This document shows positions 21,442-25,783 of a stretch of DNA of 64,000 bases, in pieces. The notes beneath the pieces are model-generated. The model saw only the letters and a list, made by a program, of their open reading frames with translations, was not told where the DNA came from and made no database searches. The position numbers and the translations under genes are program-made. The DNA lies in contig CANFRC010000006.1 in NCBI GenBank assembly GCA_947449315.1, forward strand, positions 62,001-126,000, written 5' to 3'. The stretch comes from Bacteroidota bacterium (GTDB lineage Bacteria; Bacteroidota; Bacteroidia; 2-12-FULL-35-15). Numbering within the stretch: the first letter of the stretch is position 1; every line of letters starts with the position of its first letter.

Positions 21442-21579
21442 TCGAACATTTTCTCATCACAAAATTTGTTGCCTCCAATTCGGTTTTCAAATCTAAATTT
21501 GACAGAACATTTTTTACTGTTCAGACAATTACTTTTGAATCTGAATCTATTGTACCTTTCAGAAATTATTTTAATAGTT

Positions 21580-22050
21580 ATGAAATCGACTGCATTAACA
21601 CCTGATGAATACGTGGCTCAAATGCCTGCTGAGCGAAAGGAAGCAATGACCAGATTAAGAAAAGAAATTTTGAAAAATCTTCCTAAAGGTTTTGAAGAAT
21701 GTATGACGTATGGTATGATTGCATATGTAGTTCCTCATTCCATTTACCCTGAAGGGTATCATTGCGACCCAAAACTTCCATTGGGGTTAGCTAATATTGC
21801 CAATCAGAAAAATTTCATTGCGTTTTATCATATGGGCATTTATGCAAACCCTGAATTGTTGAAATGGTTCACAGCAGAATATCCGAAACATACCGATGCT
21901 AAGTTAGATATGGGAAAAAGCTGTATCCGTTTTAAAAATCCTGATAAAATTCCGTTTAAATTATTTGGCGAGTTGATGAGAAAGTTAAGTGTGAAGGAAT
22001 GGATAGGCTTGTATGAAAATGCATTTCGGAAGAAAGCGAAAAGCCAATAA
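21580..22050 (+). CDS. DUF1801 domain protein
   Basis: A cytoplasmic protein of 156 residues. The ATG at 21580 is chosen because it begins the domain at once (TPDEYVAQMPAERKEAM); a longer frame from an upstream TTG at 21466 would add a non-conserved stretch. The pattern RLRKEILKNLPKGFEECMTY, GMIAYVVP, FIAFYHMGIY and CIRFKNPDKIPF is typical of DUF1801, a small YdhG-like fold of unknown function with proposed iron or small-ligand binding. It is in the same direction as the nitronate monooxygenase-like gene, 138 bases downstream. Confidence 0.85.
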   Translation: MKSTALTPDEYVAQMPAERKEAMTRLRKEILKNLPKGFEECMTYGMIAYVVPHSIYPEGYHCDPKLPLGLANIANQKNFIAFYHMGIYANPELLKWFTAEYPKHTDAKLDMGKSCIRFKNPDKIPFKLFGELMRKLSVKEWIGLYENAFRKKAKSQ

Positions 22051-22073
22051 TTTAAATGGTATTTTCAAATATG

Positions 22074-22799
22074 CTAAATTCTAAAACCGAGTGAAAATAG
22101 CAAATGATTTCCTCTAATATTCAGATCATTTGATCCCGCATTGCCATCATAATGAAATCGTGAAATTCCTCTCTGGAAGGAGATTTCGAAGAAAATGGCT
22201 CGATCAAAATTCTTAAAATTACGTTGTAATCCCAGTCCCATATGATAAAATGCGTTTAAGCCTTTCATCAGCCGCTGATTCTCATAATCAATATTGTCTT
22301 TTGCATCATAAACGGTAATGCCAGTAGAATCATTTGCTATTACTGTATAGGATGTGAAGAGGTATCTAGCGCCAATACCTCCAATAAAATAGGGGGTGTA
22401 AACATTTTCCTTTTCTGAATTGAATGCCACTTTTAAAGCAATTGGAAGATGAAGTTCCTGTATTCTTATTTCATGGGTATATGCAAAGGTTTTATCATAT
22501 AAATAAGTAAAGCCTTGTTTTTCATAATAACCCTGAAATTTTAATCCGTAATTAAAGTAGTCTAATCCTAAAATAATATTTGTTTTTCTTAATGCGAATA
22601 TTTCTGCCTTATATGCAAAATCAAATCCAAATAGCGCTTTTGTATTCGTGGTATGTTGGGGATGGTTTGTGTAAAATGATTTTATCCCTGAAAAACTAAT
22701 TCTGCTTTTCATTTTACCTCTTCGGTAGAACTCACCATCCTGTGCAAAAACCGTAGTTGTAAAAAAGATAAGTACTACTATGAATTTAAATAATTTCAT
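22074..22799 (-). CDS. Outer-membrane beta-barrel protein, function unknown
   Basis: A 241-residue protein with a signal peptide (MKLFKFIVVLIFFTTTVFAQ) and alternating aromatic strands, ending with phenylalanine-rich FSLGFRI, as expected for a barrel inserted by the BAM machinery. PYFIGGIGARYLF and FYHMGLGLQRNF are typical strands of the PorT-like/OMP_b-brl group. The cargo or partner is not known. Its ATG follows the stop of a truncated amidohydrolase frame by 2 bases, so translation may be coupled to that remnant and to the SDR gene before it. Confidence 0.75.
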   Translation of the reverse strand: MKLFKFIVVLIFFTTTVFAQDGEFYRRGKMKSRISFSGIKSFYTNHPQHTTNTKALFGFDFAYKAEIFALRKTNIILGLDYFNYGLKFQGYYEKQGFTYLYDKTFAYTHEIRIQELHLPIALKVAFNSEKENVYTPYFIGGIGARYLFTSYTVIANDSTGITVYDAKDNIDYENQRLMKGLNAFYHMGLGLQRNFKNFDRAIFFEISFQRGISRFHYDGNAGSNDLNIRGNHLLFSLGFRI

Positions 22800-22801
22800 T
22801 C

Positions 22802-22993
22802 CTATTTGTTTAGTAAATCTTCATTGTTTCCTATAGCAATAAATTTCCCATCTTTAACTGCAACGCTTTTTGTAGTTGAAAAGTTTGAATCGATCGTATA
22901 AATGAGCGCATTGTGAGCGATAAGATCTACTTGTTGTTTAGAAGAACAACAATAAATAAAGAGAAGTAAGAAGTAAAAACTTATTTTTCTCAT
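22802..22993 (-). pseudogene. N-terminal fragment of a YtcJ-like amidohydrolase (truncated)
   Basis: A 63-codon frame with a lipoprotein-type signal (LLLFIYCCSSK) followed by VDLIAHNALIYTID and SVAVKDGKFIAIGNNEDLL. This is the N-terminal beta-sandwich start of YtcJ-type metal-dependent amidohydrolases, which normally run on for about 500 further residues with the metal-binding HxH region. Here the frame stops at 22802 just before that, and the next gene begins 2 bases later, so the catalytic domain is entirely missing. It overlaps the SDR gene end by 4 bases (ATGA). It is either a deletion remnant or a small lipoprotein kept for translation coupling. Confidence 0.75.
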
Positions 22994-23742
22994 TTACGAA
23001 TTGATGTGGTTGAATTAGCCTGAACAGTCGGCATAATTATGATATCATTGATGTTGACATGAGCAGGACGTGATGCTACCCAAAAAACTGTTTCAGCAAT
23101 ATCTTCTGGAGATAGAGGCTGTAATCCTTTGTAAACATTTTTAGCACGTTCTTCATCTCCGTTAAATCGAACAATAGAGAATTCTGTTTCCACCATTCCG
23201 GGATTTATAGCCGTTACTTTTATATTATGAGGAAGTAAATCGATTCGCATCGCCTTGCTTAATGCATCAACTGCATGTTTGGTGGCGCAATAAACATTTC
23301 CATTTGCATATACTTCTTTGCCAGCAATTGATCCAATATTGACAATGTGTCCAAAACCATTTTTGATCATGATAGGAGCAATATTCCGAGTCATATATAA
23401 AAGCCCTTTAACATTTGTATCAATCATTCGTTCCCAATCATCGGTATTACCGTCCTGGATAGTGTTTAAGCCAGCTGCTAATCCTGCATTGTTTAAGAGT
23501 ACGTTTATCTTTTTCCAGTCTTCAGGAATAGAATTGATAGCTTTTTCAACTTCAATTAAATTTCTTACATCAAAGTTTAATTCAAGCACATCAATGCTGT
23601 ATGTCGATTTCAGATGAGCAGAAAATTCTGCTAATCTTTCTTTTCTTCGTCCTGCGATTATAACATTGTATCCATTTTTAGCAAATACTTCTGCTGTAGC
23701 TTTTCCAATTCCTGCTGTTGCTCCTGTAATTAGTGCGATCAT
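22990..23742 (-). CDS. Short-chain dehydrogenase/reductase (YdfG-like)
   Basis: A 250-residue NAD(P)-dependent oxidoreductase. The cofactor site is ITGATAGIGKATA (5-17), followed by GRRKERL, whose Arg pair suggests NADPH; NNAG is at 84-87. The catalytic tetrad is Asn110, Ser138, Tyr151 and Lys155 in DTNVKG, NIGSIAG and VYCATKH. It resembles YdfG, which oxidises L-allo-threonine and 3-hydroxy acids; the substrate here is not certain. A threonine aldolase also occurs in the window, but 15 kb away. It is first in a leftward cluster with the truncated amidohydrolase and the barrel protein. Confidence 0.92.
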   Translation of the reverse strand: MIALITGATAGIGKATAEVFAKNGYNVIIAGRRKERLAEFSAHLKSTYSIDVLELNFDVRNLIEVEKAINSIPEDWKKINVLLNNAGLAAGLNTIQDGNTDDWERMIDTNVKGLLYMTRNIAPIMIKNGFGHIVNIGSIAGKEVYANGNVYCATKHAVDALSKAMRIDLLPHNIKVTAINPGMVETEFSIVRFNGDEERAKNVYKGLQPLSPEDIAETVFWVASRPAHVNINDIIIMPTVQANSTTSIRK

Positions 23743-23783
23743 ATTTTTTTGTAATTTTTATTTTTTGATAAAATCTCTTCTAA

Positions 23784-23791
23784 CAAATATA
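23784..23791 (-). promoter_or_regulatory. -7 promoter box for the SDR cluster
   Basis: Read leftward this is TATATTTG, a perfect TAnnTTTG box, 41 bases before the SDR ATG and just downstream of the permease terminator, so the cluster has its own promoter. Confidence 0.55.
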
Positions 23792-23817
23792 CGATTTCCC
23801 TTTTTGTATTATTCAAT

Positions 23818-23848
23818 AAAAAAGCCCCGCATGACCGAGGCTTTTTTT
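23818..23848 (-). terminator. Intrinsic terminator of the amino-acid permease gene
   Basis: A 6-bp stem GCCCCG/CGAGGC with one mismatch (23824-23829 and 23836-23841) is flanked by an A-run and a T-run, so it can work in either direction. It lies 16 bases beyond the permease stop. Confidence 0.8.
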
Positions 23849-23863
23849 GTTAATGTTTATTGT

Positions 23864-25783
23864 TTAGACATTTAATTTACTATGTTTTCTGCTGTATCCA
23901 AAATAGATAAGCAGTCCTATGAGCAGCCAAATGCTGAATCCTATCCAGTTTGATAAACCTAATTCAGCCATCATATATAAACAGCTTACTAAGCCCAACA
24001 TAGGAATGAGTGAAAGGTTTTGCCTGTAGGCCCATATAGTTAATCCGAATGAAATAATAATGAAAAACCACATCGGTATTTTATGTTTAAATAAACTGAA
24101 ACCGGATTCAAATTTTAAGTCTTCACTGATGGGTAATTCATTGATCATGGAGGTGTATTTTGTCTCATCCAAACTACTCATGTATGTTTCTAAATCATTG
24201 TCGCTAGCAACAAATGCTGCGCTGTCCGTTTTTATTAGGTGAAGTTGGATGTCATTGATTTGGTTATCTTTTAATGAGGTTAGAATGGTAGTAGCATCGT
24301 TCATTTTTTTCTCATTCGTAATAAATGAAACGGTTGCCTCTTTATTATAGGTCAATGATAATACTATTGCCAATACTAATAATACGGGCATTATGAATTT
24401 AGAATTGATATAAGGCGTTTTAAATTTTCCGCGGGGAATATCTTTTTTGTTTTGTAAAACAAGAACTCCAGCACAAACTAATACAAATGCAAATAGTGTT
24501 CCTATGCTGCAAAGGTCAGTTACCATTGTAAGATTCATAAATAAAGCAGGAACAGCAACAACAAAACCTACAACGATTGTTGCAAATGATGGGGTTTTGT
24601 ATTTAGGATGTATTTTCGAAAAACGTTTCGGCAATAATCCATCTCTGCTCATGCTCATCCAAATGCGTGGTTGTCCCATTTGAAAGACTAATAACACACT
24701 TGCCATGGCTACTACTGCACTAACTGCAATGATGCCGGACATCCATTTGAAATTTAATTTATGAAAAACAAATGCTAAAGGATCACCAACATTTAGGTCG
24801 CTGTAACTCACCATGCCCGTTAGGATCAATGCAATTATTATATATAAAATAGTACATATGATAATGGACCACATCATTCCTCTTGGAAGATCGCGCTGAG
24901 GGTCTTTGCATTCTTCCGCAGTTGTTGATATGGCATCAAAACCAATGTAAGCGAAAAATACTGCAGATACACCTTTCAGAATTCCTCCAATTCCGTTTGG
25001 AGCAAATGGGTGCCAATTTTTTGTATCAACGTAAAATACGCCAACAGCAATAACCAAAAGGATTACACATAGCTTGATCACCACCATCAGATTGCTAGCA
25101 TTTCTAGATTCTTTCATACCGCGGTAAACTAACCAGGTAATAAAGATGATAATCATTAATGCTGGTAGATCAGCGATTAGGTGGATTGAAAATAATTTTG
25201 GTGCTGTTATCCAGGCTGTATAAGCAGCTTGCATTCCTTCACTTAAGTTACCAAATGATTTACCGCTTTGCATTAATGCCGTTGCTTCTTTGAAACCATT
25301 TGATGCAGTCAGATAGTCCATTTGAACCCATTGTGGTAGATCAATTCCGCTACTTTTTAATAACCCCGTAAAATAATCGCTCCAAGAGATTGCAACGGTG
25401 ATGTTACCAATACCATATTCCATAATGAGCGCCCAGCCTATTATCCAGGCTATTAATTCACCAAAAGCAACATAGGAATAAGTGTAAGCACTTCCGGATA
25501 CAGGAACCATAGAAGCGAATTCGGCATAGGCAAAAGCAGCGAAACTGCATGCTAATGCCGTGAAAAGAAAAAGGAAAATTACTGCGGGGCCACCGTCGAA
25601 GCTTGCCTTACCAATGGTGCTGAAAATACCGGCTCCCACAATAGCCGCAATACCAAAAGCTGTAAGGTCACGAACACCTAGATGTTTTCCGAGTGATCCA
25701 TGTCCTTCCGCTTCTCCATCTTTTTTTACCTGATTTAAAATATCGTGAACCGATTTTTTTCTAAATAGACTTTTAAAATTCAT
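23864..25783 (-). CDS. APC-superfamily amino-acid permease (cationic amino-acid transporter type)
   Basis: A 639-residue inner-membrane transporter with about 14 helices. The first helix has GIAAIVGAGIFSTIGKA, the hallmark of APC transporters; GFDAISTTAEECKDPQRDLP is the conserved region between helices 6 and 7 of the CAT/YfnA branch. Between two of the last helices (about residues 490-570) there is a polar stretch of some 80 residues (for example NEKKMNDATTILTSLKDNQI), larger than in basic family members. Substrate is probably an amino acid taken up with protons; which one is not known. It has its own promoter and terminator. Confidence 0.9.
   Translation of the reverse strand: MNFKSLFRKKSVHDILNQVKKDGEAEGHGSLGKHLGVRDLTAFGIAAIVGAGIFSTIGKASFDGGPAVIFLFLFTALACSFAAFAYAEFASMVPVSGSAYTYSYVAFGELIAWIIGWALIMEYGIGNITVAISWSDYFTGLLKSSGIDLPQWVQMDYLTASNGFKEATALMQSGKSFGNLSEGMQAAYTAWITAPKLFSIHLIADLPALMIIIFITWLVYRGMKESRNASNLMVVIKLCVILLVIAVGVFYVDTKNWHPFAPNGIGGILKGVSAVFFAYIGFDAISTTAEECKDPQRDLPRGMMWSIIICTILYIIIALILTGMVSYSDLNVGDPLAFVFHKLNFKWMSGIIAVSAVVAMASVLLVFQMGQPRIWMSMSRDGLLPKRFSKIHPKYKTPSFATIVVGFVVAVPALFMNLTMVTDLCSIGTLFAFVLVCAGVLVLQNKKDIPRGKFKTPYINSKFIMPVLLVLAIVLSLTYNKEATVSFITNEKKMNDATTILTSLKDNQINDIQLHLIKTDSAAFVASDNDLETYMSSLDETKYTSMINELPISEDLKFESGFSLFKHKIPMWFFIIISFGLTIWAYRQNLSLIPMLGLVSCLYMMAELGLSNWIGFSIWLLIGLLIYFGYSRKHSKLNV

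Follow-up and report, generated by a model that had tools for sequence, protein, structure and literature searches.

The window, a stretch of 64,000 nucleotides, belongs to a genome of 2.61 Mb in 27 contigs that is 99.83% complete (G000). On its minus strand, three genes follow each other closely: a short-chain dehydrogenase (SDR) gene at 22990..23742, an open frame at 22802..22993 that runs over 63 codons from an ATG to a TAG stop, and a gene at 22074..22799 for a putative barrel protein of 241 residues, which matches nothing in Pfam or NCBIfam and owes the name 'barrel' to the first-pass annotation. The short frame shares 4 nt with the SDR gene (22990-22993), and the ATG of the putative barrel gene, at 22799, lies 2 nt past its TAG stop (22802..22804).

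The 63 codons cover the signal peptide and the first part of the N-terminal domain of an amidohydrolase (AH). Compared to the AH N-terminus in the long open frames of sister species, the short frame reaches a best E-value of 3.1e-23 (in the genome of a single relative); its identity is 50-64% across 50-63 residues in 19 same-genus orthologues and 59-64% to the six nearest intact genes, and in all 19 genomes the homologous N-terminus stands within an intact open frame of 556-643 residues. Judged by sequence, this homology is not due to chance. The stretch from codon 62 to the stop measures 1530-1572 nt (510-524 codons) in the six nearest intact genes. The description from the letters alone is thus borne out: the 4-base overlap and the 2-base gap agree with the coordinates, the frame does begin as an amidohydrolase N-terminus, and the estimate of about 500 missing residues comes close to the number of codons found in the intact genes.

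The three full-length orthologues tested match Amidohydro_3 (PF07969) at 280-289 bits, which bears out only in part the label 'YtcJ-like' of the first-pass annotation, and solved relatives of the full-length protein exist (3igh, 3icj). The remnant matches no Pfam family at its cutoff, the only hit being Urease_alpha at 14.2 bits (cutoff 23), and nothing at cutoff in NCBIfam; matches of the 63-mer to β-lactamase inhibitory protein II in the PDB (E 6e-5 to 8e-5), of which no single stretch passes the cutoff, are read as chance resemblance to the repeats of that protein. Two histidines, H85 and H87 (G007 numbering), are invariant in an alignment of 13 orthologues, and both lie beyond residue 63. 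The remnant lacks this conserved HxH motif, which we take to be metal-binding, together with the catalytic barrel; as the invariant histidines fall into the lost part, it should not be an enzyme, and by its sequence the peptide is probably without function. The missing part is not found elsewhere: in a search of G000 with the full-length query, the remnant alone matches at E <= 0.01, and a match on a further contig (C2), considered as another copy, spans residues 1-21 only (E 0.024).

The genus set comprises 36 genomes including G000, 26 of them near-complete (cut at 90% complete and 5% contaminated). Called at E <= 1e-30, a full-length AH gene is present in 19 of the 36 (16 of the 26 near-complete ones) and absent from 17, G000 among them. 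All 19 have an SDR homologue just upstream of it, read from the same strand (truncated at the contig end in G001, at a distance of 472 nt in G005), and so does G050, which belongs to another family. Downstream, also on the same strand, a barrel homologue follows in 12 of the 19, the remaining 7 having no barrel match anywhere in the genome at E <= 0.001; barrel homologues further occur in 12 of the 16 AH-less genomes other than G000. Since SDR precedes AH in every case and barrel follows it in most, we take SDR-AH-barrel as the ancestral order on this comparison of sequences, with the barrel gene as the original downstream neighbor and not a new arrival. The first-pass annotation had proposed a deletion that brought a barrel gene against the AH start. 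Its deletion is well supported by synteny, given the full-length genes in 19 of the 36 genomes, and a full-length gene between the SDR and barrel genes, which it had suggested looking for, is found in 12 of the 19; these same 12, where barrel homologues follow intact AH genes, rule out that the barrel gene was newly placed by the deletion.

At least 5 of the 12 genomes (G003, G011, G017, G001, and G033) have distances of -4 to +3 nt from the AH stop to the barrel start, as against +2 in G000. In the first four of these (loci L034, L036, L041, and L039) the barrel gene seemingly starts with TTG or GTG, overlapping or near the AH stop; in G000 the start is ATG. In G005, the AH match found by genome search (L046, G005:C45:3500-5155) has one TGA inside, perhaps the gene's own end. 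The barrel protein of G000 sits on a long branch in its clade (0.51) and its SDR on one that is not unusual (0.086); on these branches, the barrel protein seems to evolve faster than the SDR.

Among named genomes, a scan with the barrel protein found nothing, and one with the AH alignment (13 of the 20 intact genes) confirmed at least 587 relatives, the best of the matches listed being L069 (CAIWDF010000185.1, MAG: uncultured Bacteroidetes bacterium isolate Day2-2_bin-746). Within the best 80 of these at least 587 loci, the AH gene is directly preceded by an SDR of at least 45% identity in 3 (L069, L120, and L127) and a barrel homologue occurs in 1 (L071, 32% identity); with so few such neighbors, the gene order is largely a feature of this genus.

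The frame at 22802-22993 is thus very probably the 5' remnant, left by a deletion, of a full-length lipoprotein-type Amidohydro_3 gene of about 560-600 residues between the SDR and barrel genes. Among the features expected of a pseudogene formed in this way, it shows a full-length orthologue at the same syntenic place (19 of 36 genomes) and no intact copy elsewhere in G000. The remnant is possibly still translated as a pass-through. It offers a clean example of gene loss: sister species have full-length orthologues with the same neighbors on either side, the putative deletion point falls on a short match, and the two operon junctions stay tight.

The putative junction of the deletion falls on AAACAAATA at 22803..22811, minus strand; in G000, the junction reads CTAAACAAATAGGAATG. 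Its left part, CTAAACAAATA (AAACAAATA plus two more bases), is identical to codons 61-64 of the intact AH gene of G035, and AAACAAATA is also the natural end of the intact gene of G011 (AAACAAATAA, Asn-Lys-stop), an ending common to the remnant, G011, and G017. An internal deletion of about 1.5 kb would have removed the body of the gene from about codon 64 on, by slippage or recombination between two short repeat copies of AAACAAATA, the first located at Asn-Lys-Tyr (codons 62-64), the second where the intact gene naturally ends in Asn-Lys-stop. Start, frame, and natural stop would all survive such an event, as would the distance to the barrel gene, and ribosomes leaving the SDR gene could presumably still pass through the remnant into the barrel gene. 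This repeat-mediated deletion, with a natural origin of the stop codon, is our preferred if unproven account, pieced together from the sequences of two genomes, and we consider it reasonably probable; the TAG would then be the gene's own stop, as it probably is, the alternative being a new nonsense change in codon 64. A 9-nt repeat in register at both ends of one gene is seen in none of the living relatives compared (20 rows). The in-register runs are 2-7 nt over these 20 rows and 3-5 nt in the six nearest; random in-frame pairs reach a run of 5 in G011 or G007 in about 5% of cases, and a run of 3 in G003 or G035 in 46-48%.

The same remnant could have formed in two steps: codon 64 first turned from TAC into a TAG stop, and the dead body was later deleted as far as the barrel start. 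For 8 of the 20 relatives, the bases after the stop were compared both to the natural end and to the codon-64 site, each against 500 shuffles. By shuffle rank, the codon-64 site is the better match in 5 of the 8 and the natural end in 3, which leans slightly against the natural-stop reading. The shuffles of 500 that reach the score, for the natural end and the codon-64 site respectively, are 430 and 141 in G035, 430 and 59 in G011, 216 and 64 in G007, 498 and 381 in G025, and 410 and 33 in G001, where the codon-64 site is closer, and 138 and 180 in G003, 208 and 257 in G017, and 9 and 311 in G033, where the natural end is. The codon-64/65 region thus speaks for two steps, with its best values in G001, G011, and G007; however, the single best value of all rows is that of the natural end of G033. 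Two steps moreover require two events, the second ending exactly where the barrel gene begins, and we prefer the single event because it also explains the close barrel start and the Asn-Lys-stop ending common to G011 and G017. A nonsense change followed by deletion, which is a variant of the remnant reading, is in our view rather unlikely.

It would be a different matter if the peptide were useless and its frame were nevertheless maintained by selection, as a relay that couples the barrel gene to the SDR gene in translation. What suggests this is the preserved frame and start with close spacing at both ends (the 4-nt overlap in front, the 2-nt gap behind), together with the fact that AH and barrel are tightly spaced in no fewer than 5 of the 12 intact relatives; in E. 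coli and Haloferax, re-initiation is described as requiring overlaps or very short gaps (PMC10666635). However, one in-frame deletion yields the same layout without any selection, and the AH-less SDR-barrel pairs divide evenly: 3 of the 6 have short gaps (2 nt in G040, 18 in G021, and 23 in G024), but in the other 3 the first possible barrel start comes 63 (G006), 64 (G031), or 121 nt (G008) after the SDR stop, so that tight coupling is not required throughout the genus.

Codon evolution bears on the same point. Our own codon-model branch test, which covers 46 codons in 15 of the 21 taxa and places G000 by hand, following the tree, in three topologies, yields an omega of 0.09-0.12 on the G000 branch against 0.035-0.040 elsewhere, a difference that is not significant (2dlnL 0.9-2.0) and where synonymous sites are saturated. 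When omega is set to 1 for the whole G000 branch, the fit worsens by 2dlnL 3.5-5.0, a rejection at the 5% level on two of the three topologies, which would favor a relay; but this branch takes in the time before the deletion, and with synonymous sites saturated as well, the test cannot separate recent decay from constraint. In a neutral simulation with substitutions only, the probability that the 63-codon frame stays open is 0.50 for 0.1 draws per site, falling to 0.26 for 0.2 and to 0.08 for 0.5; its openness is thus weak proof of use. On these sequence data a selected relay appears improbable. If true, a dead enzyme gene would be kept only for translational coupling, and operon structure would shape which deletions survive.

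Reuse of the 63-residue product as a small lipoprotein, which the first-pass annotation had offered beside deletion, is unlikely, and the same goes for a secreted peptide; taken together, we would give them very little credit. In bacterial lipoboxes, Ala, Gly, or Ser occupies position -1 before the Cys. Of the lipoprotein signal said to be kept, the hydrophobic N-terminus is indeed still present, but the former lipobox, F-I-Y-C-C at 22946..22960 on the minus strand, has Cys at -1 (FIYC-C), where the 20 orthologues compared all have Ser (15), Ala (4), or Gly (1); this change speaks against a lipoprotein, and if the first of the two Cys is taken instead, position -1 is Tyr. G017 also fails the full lipobox pattern, via Asn at -2. 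That such pieces can exist alone is suggested by a solved structure, 3ggm (BT9727_2919), a stand-alone chain resembling the amidohydrolase N-terminus. The remnant, however, reaches no Pfam family at its cutoff, and relatives with the same 63-residue protein, which would speak against decay, were looked for in 35 same-genus genomes (25 near-complete), none of which has the short version at this place. Short frames among the weak matches (e.g. 55 residues in G006:C15, E 0.06; 76 residues in G021:C68, E 0.05) lie on contigs other than that of the SDR-barrel pair. Annotators should thus be cautious not to call the 63-residue frame a new small lipoprotein.

An assembly artefact at the junction is scarcely credible, as the place lies inside a 172-kb contig, none of the direct repeats of at least 14 nt in positions 21500-24500 of the window is exact (the longest has 26 nt at 81%), and the match at the junction would be too short to mislead an assembler.

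Returning to the deletion remnant, the best reading is that of ordinary gene loss, the gene being absent from other species too; it would be a gene on its way out, as it is already gone there. On an SDR tree of 27 rows, a weakly resolved one in which 4 of the 24 inner branches are starred, the presence of AH beside SDR changes at least 4 times; among the rows that lack it, G040 carries a full-length AH homologue at another place. A profile search of the 16 other AH-less genomes yields weak matches, 19 in total (E 1.2e-6 to 9.8e-4), from 12 of them, and none from the other 4; all these matches fall within the first 108 profile positions and in other frames of 424-1129 residues, and are read on their sequences as other amidohydrolases, not as traces of the lost gene. 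None of the 26 genus genomes passing the completeness cut is smaller than G000 (2.6 Mb), which fits with streamlining.

In G006 and G031, which belong to the same clade, AH is missing and the SDR and barrel genes stand side by side; on the SDR tree the two lie close to G000 (89/74), whereas the barrel tree groups them with G007 and G025 (99/95). Their spacer scores 135 and 132 against the AH-barrel spacer of G035 (largest shuffles 46 and 49) and 65 and 60 against its SDR-AH spacer (largest shuffles 50). It is thus closer to the AH-barrel spacer, which suggests that their deletion had other ends than that in G000. At the G035 locus (L035, G035:C12), a dispersed CCTAAGTGTCTTAGTGGT-type repeat precedes both AH and barrel, in the SDR-AH and AH-barrel spacers, and appears to supply an N-terminal coding extension ahead of the signal peptides of both. 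Allowing at most 1 mismatch, this repeat occurs in 13 of the 36 genus genomes, with 9 sites in G035 and none in G000; a reversed control pattern has no match. Recombination between two flanking copies of it may have removed AH in G006 (L054) and G031 (L055). The 18-nt pattern has no match in either genome; at their barrel gene start a diverged copy remains, more like the right-hand one of G035.

The AH-less pairs of G006 and G031 resemble the G000 locus in that the same gene is absent between the same neighbors, but differ in that no AH N-terminus is found at their SDR-barrel place. The full-length Amidohydro_3 lipoproteins of the genus, e.g. G007:C5:14479-16203, share with the remnant its place after the SDR gene and its N-terminus, and differ from it by some 510 codons, the invariant HxH motif, and the catalytic domain. 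BT9727_2919, with 81 residues, is like the remnant a short stand-alone chain that aligns to the N-terminal part of AH, with an E-value of 3.4e-6 for the full-length G007 protein and 0.057 for the remnant; its match, however, extends to residue 89 of G007, beyond the stop of the window's frame, and the entry is named 'uncharacterized'. Gene remnants produced by deletion between short direct repeats are a known kind in bacteria. With these, the window's remnant has in common a junction at a short match and a frame that is kept; its repeat is reconstructed, not seen whole in one genome, and what makes the case special is only how neatly the remnant fits between its two neighbors.
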